From IMG/VR virus record IMGVR_UViG_3300030102_000958, positions 4,319-31,646 of that record: 27,328 nucleotides of DNA; one strand, given 5' to 3'. The position numbers and the translations under genes are program-made. The notes below the pieces were generated by a model. That model made no database searches, was not told the DNA's origin, and was given only the letters and a program-made list of their open reading frames with translations. Shown here one piece after another: positions 1,445 to 7,992 of this stretch; position 1 is the first letter of the stretch; each line of letters starts with the position of its first letter. This DNA comes from a virus.

Positions 1445-1486
1445 AGCTTTCTCCATTTATAATTTTATATTAATTGTTCAACTTAA

Positions 1487-1771
1487 TCAACTAGTTACTT
1501 GCAACACACCCATGGTCGAAGACCTGGGTTGCTTCTCCATGTAGTATAGAACACCCATAGCCATTGCGTCAGACAATCGAGAGTAAACTCGGCTGTCGCC
1601 ACACGCGACATCGACCAGTTCATACATGGTTTTCTGTGGGTCTTTACAGTATGTCATCCATATCTGTATGTCACCATTGTTTAGTAATCTGTGATACTGT
1701 ACGCTGTTGAGTTCGCTGTCGTATAGGTGGTCAACACCCCAGTATCTATTGACTTCACATAATTTAAGCAT
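1487..1771 (-). CDS. Hypothetical early protein, 94 aa
   Basis: Leftward ORF, not recognised. The open frame extends to 1816, but the start at 1771 (MLKLCEVNRYWGV) is preferred because AAAGGAGAAAGCT lies immediately before it, a near-ideal ribosome binding site; the extra 15 residues would run through that site and into a hairpin. The product is soluble, cysteine-containing (three Cys) and aromatic-rich (NRYWGVDHLYDSELNSVQYH, IQIWMTYCKD). Its 5' leader contains the long 1795-1881 hairpin, so expression could be influenced by RNA structure or by RNase III-type processing, which is known for T7 early mRNAs but is only inferred here. Confidence 0.65.
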   Translation of the reverse strand: MLKLCEVNRYWGVDHLYDSELNSVQYHRLLNNGDIQIWMTYCKDPQKTMYELVDVACGDSRVYSRLSDAMAMGVLYYMEKQPRSSTMGVLQVTS

Positions 1772-1794
1772 AGCTTTCTCCTTTAAAACAACAT

Positions 1795-1881
1795 CCGAAT
1801 AACACGGCCTTTCCAAGCGTCAAGGTCGGCGAAGCCGCCGAAGGGGAACCTTTACGCGAGATGGAAAGACTGTGTTATCGG
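1795..1881. other. 87-nt elongated hairpin, gene-free
   Basis: The outer arms 1795-1815 and 1862-1881 pair over 19 positions, with one bulge (1799), one G.T pair (1806/1871) and one mismatch (1808/1869). The inner arms 1817-1826 and 1848-1857 pair at 9 of 10 positions. A tip hairpin CGGC-GAA-GCCG sits at 1827-1837. On the minus strand it would be in the leader of the gene starting at 1771, ending about 12 nt before the ribosome binding site. The wobble positions do not decide the strand. It may be an RNase III processing site, an mRNA stabiliser or a small RNA; there is no T run to make it a standard terminator. Confidence 0.6.
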
Positions 1882-2048
1882 AACTGAAACACTTGGCAAT
1901 CTCAAATATATTTTCATTGGTGTGAAACGTAATCTCAACGGCGCAACACTCGCGCCGTGTCGACTGCCTTGACTTGGACGGCATCGCGAGAGCGTGAGCG
2001 TGAGCGATGGTTTACATTGCATGCGTAGCATGTAGATTACGCCGTAGG
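1882..2048. other. Gene-free stretch with several hairpins
   Basis: With its flanks this completes a gap of about 290 nt (1772-2058) with no supportable gene. It holds a strong 7-bp hairpin (1938-1944 with 1952-1958, ACGGCGC...GCGCCGT), an ATCGC/GCGAT pair (1983-1987 with 2004-2008) enclosing three copies of a GAGCGT-like hexamer, and CATGC-GTA-GCATG at 2020-2032. A 56-codon minus-strand open frame crosses it but has no ribosome binding site and an unnatural composition, so I do not call it. The stretch is visibly more GC-rich than the neighbouring genes. Confidence 0.5.
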
Positions 2049-2077
2049 CATACTGCTCTCATATAGAGAGCAGTATG
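2049..2077. repeat. Perfect 12-bp inverted repeat, 5-nt loop
   Basis: CATACTGCTCTC, ATATA, GAGAGCAGTATG: a perfect inverted repeat. Read on the minus strand it overlaps the last codons and stop of the 26-codon ORF (stop at 2059-2061), so it could act as a 3' stabiliser or a terminator for that message. There is no T run after it on either strand, so a classical intrinsic terminator is not supported. Confidence 0.75.
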
Positions 2078-2139
2078 TATGCGATGCTGTACAAAGTACA
2101 GCAAAGCATGATGAAATTTATGAGAGCGTAGCGAATCAT
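2059..2139 (-). CDS. 26-aa single-pass membrane peptide
   Basis: This ORF is too short for ordinary calling. On the minus strand a GGAG at 2147-2150, seven bases before the ATG at 2137-2139, opens a 26-codon frame reading MIRYALINFIM, then LCCTLYSIAYILLSI, stop. Residues 4-26 are almost wholly hydrophobic, enough for one membrane helix, with a basic residue at position 3 that favours N-terminus-in orientation. Two tight hairpins flank or overlap it (2159-2183 before the ribosome binding site, 2049-2077 over the stop). It could be a small holin-like, toxin-like or superinfection-exclusion peptide. That role is inference from size and hydrophobicity only, and chance occurrence is possible. Confidence 0.5.
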   Translation of the reverse strand: MIRYALINFIMLCCTLYSIAYILLSI

Positions 2140-2158
2140 ATGATATCTCCTGAAAGGT

Positions 2159-2183
2159 GAGCAGTACCCATTGGGTACTGCTC
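2159..2183. repeat. 11-bp perfect hairpin after the 257-aa gene
   Basis: GAGCAGTACCC, ATT, GGGTACTGCTC: a perfect 11-bp stem with a 3-nt loop, starting 12 nt beyond the minus-strand stop at 2195. Its position fits a transcript end or processing site after the leftward 257-codon gene. It lacks a T run on the minus strand, and what follows is a ribosome binding site for the small ORF, so attenuation or mRNA processing is more likely than full termination. Confidence 0.65.
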
Positions 2184-2194
2184 GAGTTGAAGGA

Positions 2195-2968
2195 TTAGCT
2201 GTCGATGCCATCGGCTTCGTCAGCTTGCTCTTTGAGCTTGGACTCAGTAACTTGATTACTGAGGACTTGCTGGGTCTTGGCATTAGCCTTGATTTGGTCA
2301 AGCAAGGCTTGTCCTTGCTCAGCAGAAGCTGTGTCAGCTTTTGCTTGCTTTTGCGACCAAGGAGTAAAAGCCTCTCCCTGAGTTGCCTTGTACCAAGCTT
2401 CGATAACAGACTGAATCTCGTAGATGCGATTAGCAGTCTGCGTGTTGATGTCAGACCTGAAGCTGTCATGTGCGATGCACTCGGCATCACGAGAACCAGC
2501 TCCCTTGTTGTGGAGGACTGCGTCTTTCAGAGCTTTTGCTTGCTGGTATCCAGCAACCTTTAGAGTGGAGGCGATAGCAGAGCTATCTTCTCCAGTCTTT
2601 GTCTTTCTGTGGAAAGACTCAAGAAGTGGTTGCAAGAACCGAAGTGTTCCAAGCTGTCCAGTAGGGACAGTTTCATCGGTGTCCTCCATGATGCGCTCGC
2701 CAGAAGCTGTCGTTCCGACTTGCTTCTGGTATCGATGCTCGCCAGCATCGATGTCAAAGTACATCTCATATGGATGACAGATGTTGCCATCTCCCATGAG
2801 GTACTCAATGACTTTCAGCATAGCCAACTGAGGGTCAAGCGAAGCATAGACATTGGCAGTCGACTTTTTGTCGAGTGCCTTCTGCATGTTCGACCATGTG
2901 CTATCCATATGGTCTTCTGTGATACGATATGTACTGATTACTGAATTGATTTTAGATTTGATGTCCAT
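2195..2968 (-). CDS. Hypothetical protein, 257 aa, first leftward gene
   Basis: First gene of the leftward module, with AAGGAG six bases before its ATG at 2968. I do not recognise the family. The N-terminal half has mixed helix and strand (SVISTYRITEDHMDSTWSNM; AMLKVIEYLMGDGNICHPYE). The C-terminal third, from about residue 205, is rich in Ala, Gln, Lys and Glu (SQKQAKADTASAEQGQALLD and onward) and is probably a coiled coil or flexible tail ending in an acidic DEADGID stretch. There are no membrane segments. Its position next to the large noncoding region suggests strong, perhaps immediate-early, transcription from a divergent promoter, though I could not identify convincing -35/-10 boxes. 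Confidence 0.75.
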   Translation of the reverse strand: MDIKSKINSVISTYRITEDHMDSTWSNMQKALDKKSTANVYASLDPQLAMLKVIEYLMGDGNICHPYEMYFDIDAGEHRYQKQVGTTASGERIMEDTDETVPTGQLGTLRFLQPLLESFHRKTKTGEDSSAIASTLKVAGYQQAKALKDAVLHNKGAGSRDAECIAHDSFRSDINTQTANRIYEIQSVIEAWYKATQGEAFTPWSQKQAKADTASAEQGQALLDQIKANAKTQQVLSNQVTESKLKEQADEADGIDS

Positions 2969-2998
2969 GATAGACTCCTTTTTTAAGTTAAGTTACAG

Positions 2999-3620
2999 AA
3001 CTCATACATACGAGTTCCCAATAACAGTTTTAGGCTAACAAGGGCGAACTCGAAAAGCAGACAAGGTCTGCTGGTAAAGATAGAAAAAAACAGCGTTTTA
3101 CGAGGAGACAAGCACCAGCGAGCTGGTGTGCAGACGAGGACATAAAACGGCTAAGCCCTGTTTTTTACTATCTTTATTCGATTTGTCCGTTACCAAACAA
3201 GGAGACGCGTGAGCGTGGCGACTATGTTTGCCCAATGCAAGATTACACCACAAGCTCATAGACTAGCAGACACCGTTATTCGGCTTGTCCGAATGACTGG
3301 CTGGTAGGCAATGTTCTTGTGGCGACCCTATCTCAACGCAGATAGGGGAGTCTTGCATGAAGTTGCTCGTAGCAGAGCGTTAAGCGAGCAATCTTGTAAA
3401 ATGGGAACTCGTGTGTGTGTGTCCTCTGTGCGCACTCGAGGTGACTGGAGTGAGGAAGGTAGCGACCAAGCTACACGAAACGTAGAGCAAGCAGTCGCTT
3501 GCCGTAGTGAAGTGATAGTGCGGAGGAGCGACTGACGAACGCAAGGAACTTCGCAGAGGATTTAGCACAGAGCAGATAGCTTGCATGCGTCAGCATGAAG
3601 AAAACGTGCCTGTGGCACAA
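2999..3620 (+). ncRNA. Candidate large, highly structured noncoding RNA
   Basis: This gap of about 620 nt has no credible gene but many nested helices that I traced by hand. 3003-3020 pairs with 3402-3419 (18 continuous pairs, two of them U.G). Inside are 3056-3062/3066-3072; a long arm 3075-3093/3158-3176 (18 of 19) continuing as 3094-3100/3143-3149 and 3113-3118/3123-3128; 3194-3199/3225-3230 enclosing 3205-3208/3213-3216 capped by a GUGA tetraloop; 3235-3242/3351-3358 enclosing 3248-3254/3316-3322, 3276-3283/3289-3296 and 3326-3333/3340-3347; and 3363-3369/3385-3391. A second domain spans 3422-3572 and two small hairpins follow. The U.G pairs (3005/3417, 3009/3413) would become A.C on the other strand, so the RNA is plus-strand. 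Size and style recall the GOLLD and ROOL phage RNAs or other marine RNAs; I cannot assign it to one. Confidence 0.7.
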
Positions 3621-3632
3621 TTAACATATTGA

Positions 3633-3674
3633 CAAGTGTGCTGAAGATTGGCAACAATCGAGGCATGACACTTG
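3633..3674 (+). promoter_or_regulatory. Hairpin with GCAA tetraloop over the terS start codon
   Basis: CAAGTGT (3633-3639) pairs perfectly with ACACTTG (3668-3674), and inside it GATTG (3646-3650) pairs with CAATC (3655-3659) across a GCAA (GNRA) loop. The ATG at 3665-3667 and the only Shine-Dalgarno-like GAGG (3660-3663) lie between the two stems. This could hide or present the start site of the small terminase gene, or be the 3' element of the large upstream RNA. Seen in sequence; the regulatory role is inference. Confidence 0.5.
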
Positions 3675-4033
3675 TGAAGATAACCGAGAAACAGAAGAAG
3701 CTGGTTGATACGTTAGTAGCAACTGGCGATTCGATAAAGAACTGTGCAAAGATTGCTGGTTACGCTGACGGCGAAGCTGGAAGGGTAAGTGCCAGCAAGG
3801 CTTTGAAGACACCACATGTGCAACAGTACATGATGACAGCGATAGCAGACAGCATGTCTGTGCATGCTACGAAAGCATTGAGTAGGATTGTAACTCTGAG
3901 CAGTAATGCGAAGAGTGAGTATGTGAGCCTTGAAGCGAGTAAAGACTTGCTCGATAGAGCTGGCTTTCGAGCGCCTGACAAGGTGATGCATAGTCATGTA
4001 GGTAATGTCAATGTAAAGATTGATTTGTCTTGA
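3665..4033 (+). CDS. terS: Terminase small subunit, DNA-recognition protein (122 aa)
   Basis: Residues 6-56 (ITEKQKKLVDTLVATGDSIK, NCAKIAGYADG, VSASKALKTPHVQQYM) show the usual pattern of phage small terminase subunits: an N-terminal helix, then a helix-turn-helix of the type aA..AGY......ASk.L..P.V..yl. The rest (ALSRIVTLSSNAKSEYVSLE, ASKDLLDRAGF) is the expected helical oligomerisation region, ending in a short polar tail. The subunit binds the packaging site and hands the DNA to the large subunit encoded at 6472. I chose the ATG at 3665; the longer TTG-initiated frame from 3629 would run through a GNRA-capped hairpin and has no ribosome binding site. The first gene of the rightward module, it is separated from terL by a cluster of small basic genes, an arrangement I associate with marine podoviruses. 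Confidence 0.75.
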   Translation: MTLVKITEKQKKLVDTLVATGDSIKNCAKIAGYADGEAGRVSASKALKTPHVQQYMMTAIADSMSVHATKALSRIVTLSSNAKSEYVSLEASKDLLDRAGFRAPDKVMHSHVGNVNVKIDLS

Positions 4034-4056
4034 GCTTCTCTGTATACCATACAAGC

Positions 4057-4092
4057 GTAGTTGTCTGCGATGCTTGCAGAGCGTACAACTAC
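4057..4092. repeat. 8-bp inverted repeat after terS
   Basis: GTAGTTGT (4057-4064) pairs with ACAACTAC (4085-4092), and CTGC (4065-4068) with GCAG (4076-4079) inside. It lies 24 nt after the terS stop and is followed by an AT tract (ATATATATAC), not a T run. It may be a transcript-processing hairpin or a weak terminator. Confidence 0.5.
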
Positions 4093-4119
4093 ACAGATAT
4101 ATATACGTCAGGCTTGACA

Positions 4120-4193
4120 GCAGTTATGACCCCGTGGGGGGTCAAAAACTGCACAGGCATGACAATGCGATGGTCTTGCCCTGACATTTTTTT
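4120..4193 (+). terminator. GC-rich hairpins followed by a T run
   Basis: GCAGTT (4120-4125) pairs with AACTGC (4147-4152), and inside it TGACCCC (4127-4133) with GGGGTCA (4138-4144) over a GTGG loop. A second, imperfect stem (about 4154-4158 with 4178-4183) is followed by ACA and seven T (4187-4193). In addition GTCAGG (4107-4112) can pair with CCTGAC (4180-4185), enclosing both. This is compatible with an intrinsic terminator or attenuator between terS and the gene cluster starting at 4213. It is not a textbook terminator, because the stem nearest the T run is weak. Confidence 0.5.
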
Positions 4194-4212
4194 CTAAAAA
4201 AGGAGTTTACAC

Positions 4213-4542
4213 ATGAGAGTTGGAGTAATGATGGCTGGTCTACTTAAAAAGTTATTGCAAACAAAACAGAACGTAGATAGTCTTTCTGAAGAGGAGATAG
4301 TTGATGTCAAAGACACCACTCTGGCAACGCAAGGGGGGGAAGAATCCAAAGGGAGGGCTAAACGCGGCAGGCCGCGCCTCAGCTCGAAAGCAAGGAATGA
4401 ACCTCAAAGCGCCAGTAAAGTCAGGAGACAATCCTCGAAGAGCAAGCTTTCTAGCAAGGATGGGGAACGCAAAAGGTCCAGAGTACAAGGACGGAAAACC
4501 AACAAGACTTCTTCTAAGTCTAAGGGCATGGGGAGCAAGTAG
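4213..4542 (+). CDS. Overlapping ORF, 109 codons, basic, uncertain
   Basis: The ATG at 4213 has an excellent site (AAAGGAG, 8 nt spacing), so ribosomes very probably start here. The first 30 residues (MRVGVMMAGLLKKLLQTKQN, VDSLSEEEIV) look like a normal protein. From 4304 the frame overlaps the better-supported gene 4304-4624 for 239 nt, and the rest is Ser/Lys/Arg-rich low complexity. That part includes KRGRPRLSSK, which resembles an AT-hook core (RGRP), though it may be a frame-shifted shadow. Options are a true overprinted DNA-binding protein, a short leader that couples translation to the next gene, or a frameshift leader. No family is recognised. Confidence 0.4.
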   Translation: MRVGVMMAGLLKKLLQTKQNVDSLSEEEIVDVKDTTLATQGGEESKGRAKRGRPRLSSKARNEPQSASKVRRQSSKSKLSSKDGERKRSRVQGRKTNKTSSKSKGMGSK

Positions 4543-4624
4543 TAAGGCTGATGCTCGAGCAAAGGCAAAAGCTATTAGTAAGCGTAACGAGAAGGCGAAG
4601 AGTTCAAATAAAAACGTTGGGTGA
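4304..4624 (+). CDS. Small basic phage protein (DUF6321-type), 106 aa
   Basis: Begins MSKTPLWQRKGGKNPKGGLN, then AAGRASARKQGMNLKAPVKS, GDNPRRASFLARMGNAKGPE, and ends with a Lys/Ala-rich tail. The WQR..GKNP.GGLN..GR....... .LKAPV......... RR.SF.ARM.G..GP...... PTR...... W pattern is a conserved family of very small phage proteins that I recall as DUF6321; its function is unknown. The ATG at 4304 has GAGGAG seven bases upstream, so it is preferred to the TTG at 4301. It occurs, as here, close to terminase genes, and its strong basicity suggests nucleic-acid or virion association (inference). Confidence 0.8.
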   Translation: MSKTPLWQRKGGKNPKGGLNAAGRASARKQGMNLKAPVKSGDNPRRASFLARMGNAKGPEYKDGKPTRLLLSLRAWGASSKADARAKAKAISKRNEKAKSSNKNVG

Positions 4625-4649
4625 GAATCCAGAACCAAAGGAGAAGTAA

Positions 4650-5429
4650 ATGGCTGAAGAAGATAAGAACGTACCAGCACGACCAAAGATAACTTATCAT
4701 GTAAATTATTTAAAGTCTCGAAGAGCTGCAAAAGCTTGGGATAAGAAATATAAGAAGACCCATAAGCCTGACGGCTCACCAAAGAAATCAAAGGATGAAA
4801 AGAGAGCTGATATAAGAGCAAGGCTAAAGACCAGCAAAGAAAGTGGTGGTATTGGCAAGGAGGCGAAGAGACGATATTCCGGTGAGGGAGAGGTCGATAA
4901 CCAAGCTAGAAGAACTCTAAAAGGCTCTGCTGAAAGAGCAAAGAGAATGACTGAGGTAGCTAAGTCTACAAAGTCAGATGCTAGTAAAAAATTAACTCAG
5001 GTAGGCAAAGCAAAGAGTACCATGTCAGATGCTCAGAAGATGAACTTAACAACTAGGAGTTCTATGTCTGATGCACAGAAAAGGGGACAAGTTCCTAAAT
5101 CAACTTCATCTATGTCGGATGCTCAGAAGAGAGGAGCTGTTCGAAGGTCTAAGGCAACGATGTCTGATAAACAAAAAGCTAGAGCCGATAGTAAACCTAG
5201 CTCAGATACATCTTCTTCTACAACCTCTAGCAAGAAAGACATGACGTTTAAAGAAGCGTTTAGGCAAGGTGTGAAAGATAGGAAAGCTGGAAAGGGTATG
5301 AACTTTACTTGGAGAGGAAAGTCTTATGCCGCCGTTACTCAGGATGAAATTGACAAAGCACAGAAAGCTGGCAAGATAAAAAAGAATACCTTGAGAGCTT
5401 TCTTAAACATGAAAAGGAAAAAGAAATAA
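4650..5429 (+). CDS. Lys-rich repeat protein with WRGK C-terminal motif, 259 aa
   Basis: Very basic, almost without hydrophobic core. Residues 1-60 are Lys/Arg-rich (YLKSRRAAKAWDKKYKKTHK). Residues 123-178 carry four spaced copies of an octamer (S/A)(T/S)MSD(A/K)QK at about 123, 137, 153 and 169, with a decayed copy near 106. A Ser/Thr linker (182-196) leads to a C-terminal module FKEAFRQGVKDRKAGKGMNF, TWRGKSYAAVT (about 200-230) of a type common at the C termini of small phage proteins. It is likely a disordered nucleic-acid-binding or virion-internal protein; the function is unknown. AAGGAG precedes the ATG. Its stop overlaps the next start (TAATG). Confidence 0.75.
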   Translation: MAEEDKNVPARPKITYHVNYLKSRRAAKAWDKKYKKTHKPDGSPKKSKDEKRADIRARLKTSKESGGIGKEAKRRYSGEGEVDNQARRTLKGSAERAKRMTEVAKSTKSDASKKLTQVGKAKSTMSDAQKMNLTTRSSMSDAQKRGQVPKSTSSMSDAQKRGAVRRSKATMSDKQKARADSKPSSDTSSSTTSSKKDMTFKEAFRQGVKDRKAGKGMNFTWRGKSYAAVTQDEIDKAQKAGKIKKNTLRAFLNMKRKKK

Positions 5430-5548
5430 TGCCTGGACTTACTGACAAACAAAAAACTTTACCTGAATTTCTTAAGAAAAAAATTATGAAGTCTAAGATG
5501 AAGAAAAAGAAACCTTTGTATGATAAGGGGAAGATGAATGGCAGTTAA
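5429..5548 (+). CDS. 39-aa basic protein, MPGLTDKQKTLP family
   Basis: Too short for the usual ORF threshold but well supported. The ATG overlaps the preceding stop (TAATG), and the product reads MPGLTDKQKTLPEFLKKKIM followed by KSKMKKKKPLYDKGKMNGS. I recall near-identical MPGLTDKQK.LP..LK.KI proteins in marine phage genomes, always tiny and next to terminase or small basic genes. Eighteen of 39 residues are Lys, mostly C-terminal. Function unknown. It overlaps the next gene by 11 nt. Confidence 0.75.
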   Translation: MPGLTDKQKTLPEFLKKKIMKSKMKKKKPLYDKGKMNGS

Positions 5549-5705
5549 CGCGGCTGGTAATTATACGCGACCAAGAATGCGTAAAGCCTTATTCAACTCT
5601 ATAAAGAATAGAGCTGTTCAAGGTACTGCCGCTGGCAAGTGGTCTGCTCGAAAGGCACAGTTGTTAGCAAAGCAGTATAAACAAAAAGGTGGTGGGTATA
5701 CCTAA
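5538..5705 (+). CDS. 55-aa WSARKAQLLAKQY protein (DUF5872-like)
   Basis: Another gene below the usual length threshold. The product MAVNAAGNYTRPRMRKALFN SIKNRAVQGTAAGKWSARKA ends QLLAKQYKQKGGGYT. The W-S-A-R-K-A-Q-L-(L/V)-A..Y...GGGY ending is a conserved signature that I associate with the DUF5872 family, which also occurs in bacterial proteins. In phages it appears as a stand-alone domain, as here. It is basic and probably a small helical nucleic-acid-binding module; the function is not established. It starts inside the previous gene and its stop overlaps the next ATG (TAATG), so all three are coupled. Confidence 0.75.
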   Translation: MAVNAAGNYTRPRMRKALFNSIKNRAVQGTAAGKWSARKAQLLAKQYKQKGGGYT

Positions 5706-6046
5706 TGGAGCTTATTCAAAGACTTTTAGGTAAAAGAAAAGGTGAGATAAAGCGTCTTCGCGATAAGAAAATAAAAGCAAAGCGTGATAAAGCACTTGCT
5801 ATAAAAGATATCAAAAGAGATATCGATTTTCGTAAGGACATGATGACTGCTAAAGAAAATTTTAGTTATAGAATGCGTCCTTCTGAAAAAAATATAGATA
5901 AACAAATATTAAAAAATCAAAAAAGAAATCTTCTAAGAGTTCGTATGGGAGGTAAAGCAAAAGATATATTTAATATTGATATGCCTCGTCCAGACGTTCC
6001 AAAACCTTTTTCATCTAAAACAGCTTTGTGGAAACTAATTAAATGA
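5705..6046 (+). CDS. Hypothetical basic coiled protein, 113 aa
   Basis: Highly charged: LIQRLLGKRKGEIKRLRDKK then IKAKRDKALAIKDIKRDIDF in the first 50 residues gives a long basic amphipathic helix, followed by a polar region ending in PFSSKTALWKLIK. No membrane span and no recognised domain. It is fixed between two coupled genes (TAATG on the left, 4-nt ATGA overlap on the right). Codon use is more AT-rich than in the neighbouring structural genes. It probably shares the unknown role of the other small basic proteins in the terS-terL interval. Confidence 0.6.
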   Translation: MELIQRLLGKRKGEIKRLRDKKIKAKRDKALAIKDIKRDIDFRKDMMTAKENFSYRMRPSEKNIDKQILKNQKRNLLRVRMGGKAKDIFNIDMPRPDVPKPFSSKTALWKLIK

Positions 6047-6285
6047 AGAAGTCACAAAGAAGTTTGAAAGCTTGGGGAGAACAAGATTGGCAAACCAAAA
6101 GTGGCAAGAAGTCTTCAGAGACTGGGGAAAGGTATCTACCAAAGAAAGCAATCCAAGCTCTGTCATCAGAAGAGTACGCACGAACCACAGCAGAGAAAAG
6201 AAAAGCAAAGAAGAAAGGGAAACAATTTTCTTCTCAACCAAAGCAAATAGCAAAAAAGACAGCACTCTATAGGAGATTTGCATGA
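6043..6285 (+). CDS. Small basic conserved phage protein, 80 aa
   Basis: Reads MKKSQRSLKAWGEQDWQTKS, GKKSSETGERYLPKKAIQAL, then SSEEYARTTAEKRKAKKKGK, QFSSQPKQIAKKTALYRRFA. The pattern KS.KSL..W....W.TKSGK.S..TGERYLP..AI..LS..EYA.T...KR....KGKQFS.QPK.IA.KTA.YR is one I recall in many marine and other aquatic phages. It is encoded near terminase genes and has no known function. The residues that recur (W, TGERYLP, EYA, QFS, QPK) are intact, so the gene is not degenerate. It has 4-nt overlaps with both neighbours. Confidence 0.8.
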   Translation: MKKSQRSLKAWGEQDWQTKSGKKSSETGERYLPKKAIQALSSEEYARTTAEKRKAKKKGKQFSSQPKQIAKKTALYRRFA

Positions 6286-6485
6286 GTTTTATAAACAACC
6301 TCAAACCAGAAGAGCATAGATATTTAAGACGTGTAGTAAAAGAAATTCACTTTCAATACTTTGATGAGAAACATGGAGCTTCTTTCGTTACTAATAAAAT
6401 GCTTGATAATGTCATTGAGAACATTGGACCTGAGGTTGCAGAAGCAATGATTAGAACTGGTGTAGATAAAGGTGACAGACTTTAA
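6282..6485 (+). CDS. Conserved small protein upstream of terL, 67 aa
   Basis: Reads MSFINNLKPEEHRYLRRVVK, EIHFQYFDEKHGASFVTNKM, LDNVIENIGPEVAEAMIRTG, VDKGDRL. Unlike the preceding cluster it is not strongly basic and looks like a compact all-helical domain. A small protein with this pattern commonly sits directly before the large terminase gene in marine podoviruses; its role is unknown, perhaps an accessory to packaging (inference from context). The ATG overlaps the previous stop (ATGA) with AGGAG upstream, and its last 14 bases overlap terL. Confidence 0.7.
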   Translation: MSFINNLKPEEHRYLRRVVKEIHFQYFDEKHGASFVTNKMLDNVIENIGPEVAEAMIRTGVDKGDRL

Positions 6486-7992
6486 GTACAAACCTGATGG
6501 GGATGTTCTCAAAGGGTTTATGAAAGATGATAGTTTCTTCCGTGGCATCCGTGGCCCAGTTGGTTCTGGTAAATCTGTTGGATGCTGTGTTGAAGTATTC
6601 AGAAGGGCATTAGAACAGAAACCAAATGAAGATGGAGTCCGTAAATCACGCTGGGCAATCATACGAAATACAAACCCACAACTTAGAACTACAACAATAA
6701 AGACTTGGTTAGACTGGTTTCCAGAATCAGACTGGGGAAACTTTAAGTGGTCAGTTCCTTATACTCATCACATAACTGTGAATGACTTAGACCTTGAAGT
6801 TATCTTTCTTGCTCTCGATAGACCAGAAGATGTTAAGAAGCTTCTATCTCTTGAGCTAACTGGCATATGGGTGAATGAAGCAAGAGAGATACCAAAGAGT
6901 ATTATTGATGCTTGTACTATGCGTGTTGGTAGATACCCAAGTATGAGAGAGGGTGGCGCAAGTTGGTCTGGTGTTATCTGTGATACCAACGCACCAGAAG
7001 AAGACCATTGGTGGGCAATCATGTCAGGAGAGGTTCCTATACCTGACCATATTCCTCGAGAACAAGCAACAATGTTAGTGAAGCCAGATAACTGGAGGTT
7101 CTTTGTCCAGCCTCCAGCTATGAAAGAACACATAAATGAAAGAAAAGAAATAACTTCTTATTCTCTGAATAAAGATGCAGAAAATCAAAAAAATATTTTA
7201 GCAACATATTATCCGAATCTTATTCGAGGCAAGACTAAGAACTGGATAGATGTTTATGTTATGAATAGGTTGGGTCTTATTCAGGAAGGTAAACCAGTAT
7301 ATCCTGACTTTGTAACTGAGACACATCTTGCTGAAGAAGAAATACCTATTGCTATTGGTGTCCCATTATATGTTGGCATAGACTTTGGTCTTACTCCTTC
7401 TGCTGTCTTTGGGCAAAAGGTTAGAGGTCGATGGCTGGTGCAAGCTGAGATAGTTGCTATTGATATGGGTGTTGTTAGATTCGCTGAGTTATTGCGGCAA
7501 GAAATAGCTACACGATTTAGTGGACTCGATGTTTATATATATGGCGACCCAGCTGGTGACTTCCGAGCGCAAACAGATGAATCAACTCCTTTTCAAATAC
7601 TTAGAGGTGCTGGGCTGAAAGCTGTACCAGCTCCTAGTAATAGTGTAGACCTACGACTTGAAGCTGTTGCTTCTCAGCTAACTAAGATGTCTGAAGGACA
7701 GCCAGCTTTCTTGATAGATAGAAGATGCCAAACATTAGTAAAAGGTTTTCAAGGTGGTTATTGCTATAGACGGATGCAAGTATCTGGTGAGAGATATGAT
7801 GATAAACCTGATAAGAATATGTACTCTCATATACATGATGCCTTACAATATATGATGCTTGGTGCTGGTGAAGGACGTAGTTTAATAGCTGGTCAGAAGC
7901 CAGTTAAAGCGTTCAATGCTAGAAAAGGCTTTGATATTTTTAAAAGAACGGCTAATGTTAGAAAAAGTGGTTCATTCTGGAATAGACTATAA
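6472..7992 (+). CDS. terL: Terminase large subunit (ATPase-nuclease), 506 aa
   Basis: The packaging motor. The Walker A motif is GPVGSGKS at residues 28-35. The Walker B-like segment is LTGIWVNEAREI (129-140, with E137 the likely catalytic glutamate), and the coupling motif is CDTNAPEEDHW (170-180). The C-terminal RNase H-fold nuclease shows the expected acidic residues in GIDFGLTPS (D304), IYGDPAGD (D359) and HIHDALQY (D456). Length and motif spacing are normal for a podovirus terminase, and no key residue is missing. The start is GTG at 6472, overlapping the upstream gene by 14 nt; the next ATG is at residue 17 and would cut close to the conserved FRGIRGPVGSGKS segment. It uses DNA selected by the small subunit (3665) and works on the portal encoded at 8297. 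Confidence 0.95.
   Translation: MTDFKYKPDGDVLKGFMKDDSFFRGIRGPVGSGKSVGCCVEVFRRALEQKPNEDGVRKSRWAIIRNTNPQLRTTTIKTWLDWFPESDWGNFKWSVPYTHHITVNDLDLEVIFLALDRPEDVKKLLSLELTGIWVNEAREIPKSIIDACTMRVGRYPSMREGGASWSGVICDTNAPEEDHWWAIMSGEVPIPDHIPREQATMLVKPDNWRFFVQPPAMKEHINERKEITSYSLNKDAENQKNILATYYPNLIRGKTKNWIDVYVMNRLGLIQEGKPVYPDFVTETHLAEEEIPIAIGVPLYVGIDFGLTPSAVFGQKVRGRWLVQAEIVAIDMGVVRFAELLRQEIATRFSGLDVYIYGDPAGDFRAQTDESTPFQILRGAGLKAVPAPSNSVDLRLEAVASQLTKMSEGQPAFLIDRRCQTLVKGFQGGYCYRRMQVSGERYDDKPDKNMYSHIHDALQYMMLGAGEGRSLIAGQKPVKAFNARKGFDIFKRTANVRKSGSFWNRL

Follow-up and report, generated by a model that had tools for sequence, protein, structure and literature searches.

A predicted promoter conserved ahead of the small terminase gene of related marine phages, and a hairpin overlying it in one clade

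At the start of the small terminase gene (terS) in the window, by which we mean the whole stretch of 27,328 nt of viral DNA analyzed here, we found a site that is very probably a sigma70-type promoter of terS, conserved among related marine phages. In the window and its closest relatives, a nested hairpin covers this promoter and the first codons of the gene. The conserved promoter beneath the hairpin is well supported by the sequence comparison and is the more solid finding of the two. An overall explanation in which terS has its own promoter, a leaderless mRNA and a hairpin acting as a clade-specific lock has, in our judgment, about an even chance of being right. The features on which the analysis rests are as follows:

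2995–3428, + strand: large structured RNA candidate, separate from the hairpin, recognized by its fold z-score and by two-sided pair changes
3629–3634, + strand: -35 hexamer TTGACA, invariant in 27/27 segments, best promoter match
3632–3639, + strand: 5′ arm of the outer stem (8 bp), overlapping the -35 hexamer and the spacer
3640–3642, + strand: 5′ side of the middle 3-bp helix, pair probability 0.89–0.91
3646–3659, + strand: inner 5-bp stem with GCAA loop, covering the -10 hexamer
3653–3658, + strand: -10 hexamer AACAAT, separated from TTGACA by an 18-nt spacer, with A 3654 and T 3658 invariant
3662–3664, + strand: 3′ side of the middle helix, pairing with 3640–3642
3665–3667, + strand: terS start codon and predicted transcription start, 6 nt past the -10 hexamer, with a conserved N-terminus
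3668–3675, + strand: 3′ arm of the outer stem, within terS codons 2–4
3665–4033, + strand: terS, small terminase subunit, 122 aa (phrog_2538, Pfam Terminase_2)

The small terminase gene and its promoter

The terS open reading frame matches phrog_2538 (E 3e-13, searched from 3629) and scores 25.6 bits against Pfam Terminase_2, slightly below the cut-off of 26.1. We place its start at the ATG at 3665 because the protein, which carries a conserved MTLVKITEKQKK at its N-terminus, is conserved from MTLV on and because many relatives have in-frame stops just upstream; on the same grounds we rejected TTG 3629 and GTG 3638, two upstream starts that are open in the window. Of the cultured relatives found, Pelagibacter phage EXVC031P Hodr is the nearest, sharing 64.5% identity in the large terminase and 52.5% in the small one, which makes a SAR11-type bacterium the likely host. 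A search of cultured-phage DNA with window positions 1700–4300 returned no match, and bacterial and archaeal genome contigs contained one relative (L176, 55%).

For comparison, a protein search of viral contigs provided the best 80 of 86 terS relatives. The alignment comprises 27 distinct segments of the closest group, each running from 52 nt before to 20 nt after the ATG; they were drawn from the window and 33 loci, with seven identical duplicates removed. Left out were L006 (fewer than 52 nt upstream; promoter as in L004), L028 (5′ end missing), and L034–L051, L053, L054 and L056–L080, among which L034 has no upstream sequence and the others show a different upstream region or lower identity. 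The window forms a clade with L001, L002 and L003 (support 100/100), and L004 is its sister (93/96).

TTGACA is invariant across all 27 segments and lies 36 nt from the ATG in 5 and 37 nt in 22 of them. Among the 29 window positions between TTGACA and CATG, the sole invariants (n = 27) are A 3654 and T 3658, which are the second and sixth base of the hexamer 18 nt past TTGACA; the spacer is otherwise mostly variable. The second and sixth bases are the positions of a -10 hexamer that are expected to be most conserved. When positions 1450–6500 were scanned for sigma70-like promoters, the top match fell at the terS site (10/12), while the scan overall returned 10 sites versus 7.3 in shuffles, a count that proves little. 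The -10 hexamer is weak (AACAAT in the window, CACAGT in many relatives). Out of 100 shuffles, 15, 17, 21 and 72 matched or beat the promoter scores of L008, L018, L020 and L026, respectively, and in L017 and L021 a different site outscores the predicted terS promoter. A phage-specific promoter motif was also considered and rejected, as AATTAANNTATTGACA occurs only once in the window as an exact sequence, and a search allowing 3 mismatches gave 9 matches versus 7.8 expected.

TTGACA came out as the top -35 hexamer in 28 of 39 representatives. In 22 representatives of the last group of excluded rows (L034–L051, L053, L054 and L056–L080), the top-scoring promoter site is in most cases more distant from the start or scores like shuffles. 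The start is found 19–21 nt past the -10 hexamer in L035, L036, L049–L051, L053, L057 and L065, and the best site in the L056/L060–L077 types is no better than many shuffles. Hodr carries TTGACA-17-TATACT (11/12) about 43 nt before an ATG, downstream of a long structured hairpin and upstream of terS. In this survey, TTGACA promoters ahead of terS are common, and the leaderless spacing was observed only in the window's group. A separate observation concerns L035–L042 and L044, in which another GNRA-capped hairpin (approximately GCTTAC-GNAA-GTAAGC) lies upstream of terS between TTGACA and TAGAAT (19-nt spacer).

The start of the terS message

Transcription normally begins 7–8 nt past the last base of the -10 hexamer. 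In all 27 segments this base lies 7–8 nt before the ATG, and the hexamer begins with A or C, not T. With the -10 hexamer placed so near the ATG, the predicted transcription start is the first base of the start codon (A 3665), and a terS mRNA that is leaderless and starts at the AUG is on this spacing rather probable.

Shine-Dalgarno (SD) pairing was weak in the window, where the terS duplex (-1.5 kcal/mol) is the third weakest among 29 genes. The GAGG at 3660–3663 is separated from the ATG by 1 nt and survives in 4/27 segments (the window, L002, L004 and L007); the others have GAAG, GACGG, GATCGG, GACCGA and further forms in its place. Given this spacing, the poor retention and the weak duplex, we rejected GAGG as an SD sequence. 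An SD-like stretch (-5.2 to -7.9) is present in six of the 27 segments (L012, L014, L018, L024, L025 and L026). In L012, L014 and L018 a further in-frame ATG precedes the start by 9 nt. The six may therefore not use a leaderless message.

A TANNNT motif about 12 bp before the start codon is described as a mark of leaderless bacterial genes (PMC3160421), and leaderless messages are common in some alphaproteobacteria, with 375 in Caulobacter crescentus and 171 in S. meliloti (PMC4117421). Going by excerpts of these two papers, the site studied here resembles such genes in its [A/C]ANNNT ending 7–8 nt before the ATG and in its weak SD in the window; it differs in belonging to a phage terS and in the start-region hairpin added in one clade. 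Among the papers listed, no title or abstract opening dealt with leaderless small terminase genes or with pelagiphage noncoding RNA near the terminase, and a literature search on Hodr gave no paper.

Structure, distribution and surroundings of the hairpin

An earlier note on this DNA had described a nested hairpin with a GCAA-capped inner stem, with the GAGG and the ATG of terS between its stems, and both parts of this description hold. The outer arms CAAGTGT (3633–3639) and ACACTTG (3668–3674) are perfect complements, extended to 8 bp by A 3632 and T 3675, and the inner stem pairs GATTG (3646–3650) with CAATC (3655–3659) around the GCAA loop (3651–3654). We additionally identified a middle helix, absent from that note, in which GCT (3640–3642) pairs with GGC (3662–3664) and joins the outer to the inner stem. 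As a consequence, pairing takes in the final GG of GAGG, and the three bases of the AUG bulge out where the outer helix meets the middle one.

The region 3600–3700 folds with -26.9 kcal/mol (z -3.68), which none of 200 dinucleotide shuffles equaled. When just the 30 nt between the -35 hexamer and the codons were shuffled, with both of these fixed, the fold of the window remained exceptional (p = 0.00035). Among 29 start-codon regions, selected by us from the open reading frames of the window, the terS start has the strongest fold (z -4.66; runner-up -1.51). By raw energy the hairpin ranks 13th among 46-nt places on the + strand and is not unique. It still forms within a longer RNA (2990–3760), where the outer pairs reach probabilities of 0.94–1.0 (0.54 for the innermost outer pair), the middle helix 0.89–0.91 and the inner stem 1.0. 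In the read-through RNA of the window, the AUG is mostly unpaired (0.47, 0.94 and 0.99) and the closed part consists of codons 2–4; in the read-through fold of L003, two bases of the AUG, its A and its U, take part in pairing. An RNA starting at 3665 leaves the AUG open (unpaired 1.0, 0.83 and 0.89; 0.43–0.99 for the following seven bases). No clear contrast emerged with relatives that lack the hairpin, among which L012 has a largely paired AUG in the leaderless RNA.

Across all 27 segments, hairpin cells were paired in 56.3% of cases versus 56.2% after shuffling, the covariation score was equaled by 43 of 500 shuffles, and RNAalifold returned no consensus pairs. Folded one by one, 23 of the 27 distinct relatives, including the sister L004, gave no significant fold. 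The full hairpin is missing from these while terS is kept, an outcome that the earlier note had named as speaking against its proposal. In view of the 23 unfolded segments and the lack of a signal of compensating changes, we rejected a family-wide conserved RNA element at the terS start. Three basal pairs (A-U, C-G and A-U) are seemingly kept in 23, 23 and 27 of 27 segments, which is not evidence of an RNA element because TTGACA and codons 3–4 already dictate these bases.

The four members of the window's clade all fold (z -4.7 to -5.2), in two sequence versions. The window's version recurs in five more contigs (L001, L002, L052, L148 and L156, the last cut inside codon 4), and the sole stem base varying among them is 3662 (G or A), with pairing kept. 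Because there is hardly any difference among these hairpins and the contigs have probably exchanged DNA, such agreement does not prove constraint; we likewise dropped the identity of the window and L002 spacers as evidence, since the downstream intergenic sequence of the two is also identical at 178/179 positions. The second version, in L003, has 12 of its 30 spacer bases changed and folds equally strongly (p 0.00015, with the -35 hexamer and codons fixed). Its outer arm CAAGTG is displaced by 4 nt, perhaps through a small duplication, and the distance from TTGACA to the ATG is still 36 nt. Two such folds within one clade of the 27 rows are unlikely to have arisen by chance, with the reservation that only one contig, L003, carries the second version and that the contigs have mosaic sequences. 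Codons 2 and 3 of terS use a single codon in 23/23 sequences, but 20 of 81 invariant degenerate codons do likewise, and we therefore make no claim of constraint for codons 2–4. The earlier suggestion that the hairpin regulates translation of terS thus fails as a trait of the family (lost in 23/27, with GAGG poorly placed and kept in 4/27) and survives as a lineage-specific possibility (4/4 clade members fold, L003 with a different sequence).

The large structured RNA candidate upstream (2995–3428) is noncoding, lies between divergent genes and has no Rfam match. Its fold is stronger on the + strand (z -8.71) than on the − strand (z -6.58), and 12 of 140 pairs are changed on both sides yet kept among 5 sequences (two nearly identical), with a covariation term of just 0.04. 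Its closing arm lies 262 nt from the terS ATG in the window, 349 nt in L001, 591 nt in L002 and 390 nt in L004, a variation which indicates that the hairpin is not attached to it. The scan listed no + strand terminator-like site between 2995 and 3664, so read-through from the large RNA toward the promoter is possible. In the window as a whole, Rfam gave no match above the gathering score, and at E up to 5 the only weak match (2050–2103) lies away from the hairpin.

Several observations on the surrounding noncoding DNA are reported for completeness. A small GTGCC/GGCAC hairpin (3605–3619) just upstream of the terS promoter is terminator-like on the − strand; it is kept, with a loop change, in contigs with the window's version of the larger hairpin and is lost in L003 and L004. 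The block 3255–3315 is matched separately upstream of terS in L003, L010, L012, L013, L018, L019 and L020. Downstream of terS, the noncoding stretch 4034–4212 is identical at 171–178 of 179 positions in L002–L004 and at 169/179 in L001, while the terS of L004 is only 81% identical; this stretch is structured (z -4.85), contains a long stem followed by seven T, and has matches in 20/81 loci searched. A second conserved block (1729–1883) covers the end of a leftward open reading frame and beyond, with up to 93% identity over 92 columns (L009). In Hodr (5640–5810), the same divergent junction contains a long hairpin that includes the annotated ribosome binding site of the leftward gene.

A possible fold-back lock and its alternatives

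In the window's clade, the hairpin overlies the predicted terS promoter, with its 5′ arm in the -35 hexamer and spacer and its 3′ arm in codons 2–4. Read-through RNA from upstream, for example from the large structured RNA, would carry both arms and close the start region, while RNA from the gene's own promoter would lack the 5′ arm and leave it open, so that the gene's own promoter would account for most of the terS made. The hairpin may in this way be a functional, lineage-specific fold-back lock that keeps terS quiet on longer upstream messages, a reading we hold tentatively. The hairpin, the conserved promoter pattern, the weak SD of the window and the restriction to one clade are seen directly in the sequences; the start site, leaderless translation, read-through and repression are all steps that we infer from them. 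A two-transcript switch, in which transcription of the large RNA through the junction keeps terS off and the own promoter supplies a hairpin-free leaderless message, seems unlikely.

Arrangements of this kind have been described elsewhere. In IS10 and IS50, read-through RNA folds over the transposase start and the element's own transcript does not, which protects against transcripts from outside. The likeness lies in a start region folded on read-through RNA and not on the own transcript; the transposase gene, unlike terS, sits at the end of an element and is SD-led. In phage T4, the SD sequence and/or start codon of genes e, soc, 49 and I-TevI is held in a helix on long upstream transcripts; gene e has its own late promoters in the region coding the 5′ strand and thus a transcript without that strand, repression by its hairpin has been measured, and some related phages have gene e without the structure (PMC3014915). 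Similarly, the predicted terS promoter overlies the 5′ strand of the hairpin, the terS transcript would lack this strand, and some relatives have the gene without the structure. T4, however, uses late promoters and ribosome binding sites, whereas the terS promoter is sigma70-like and its message is predicted to be leaderless; moreover, the gene here is terS, its AUG in the window is largely bulged out of the fold, and the arrangement is a prediction from sequence.

The main competing explanation accepts the promoter but takes the hairpin for an incidental product of the spacer and first codons, formed by chance in one small clade and without a role. It accords with the 23 of 27 relatives that share the promoter and are not significantly folded, with the mostly bulged AUG of the window, and with the consideration that ribosomes would in any case make little use of a start without SD on read-through RNA. 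Set against it are the shuffling results for the window (p 0.00035) and for L003, where the fold is kept with 12 of 30 spacer bases different (p 0.00015), and the rank of this start as the most strongly folded of 29. We regard an incidental fold as possible, though somewhat doubtful. The inverted repeat could instead act as DNA, namely as an operator spanning the promoter, with ACAAGTGT/ACACTTGT recognized by a regulator in dimeric form, perhaps TerS itself. The arms do flank and overlap the -35 hexamer and the predicted start, and ACACTTGT is kept in 23/27 segments, although it is coding; but in L003 the arms are spaced differently, most of the 27 segments lack the complete 5′ arm, and the alternation between G-U and A-U pairing at 3662 fits RNA at least equally well. 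An operator is therefore improbable.

Two further proposals can be given very little weight. If GAGG (3660–3663) were the ribosome site, hidden by the hairpin on the normal terS message, its place between the stems and its paired GG would make sense, but the 1-nt distance to the ATG, its retention in 4/27 segments and the weak SD duplex render such control highly improbable. The earlier note had alternatively proposed that the large RNA could have its 3′ end in this hairpin; this agrees with the presence of an upstream RNA candidate that folds better on the + strand, and is contradicted by the lack of a U-tract after the outer stem (past 3675), by the spacing of 262–591 nt and by the conserved promoter in between, making a terminator scarcely credible.

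With respect to the fold-back lock, it would, if real, extend the early/late start-region hairpin of T4 to a leaderless gene. If the two-transcript switch were also true, a fold-back lock and leaderless initiation would together govern when a phage, probably one of SAR11-type bacteria, begins to package its DNA. In conclusion, the terS start provides an example of a striking hairpin superimposed on a conserved promoter, and offers a testable rule for the possible timing of packaging in a marine phage group.
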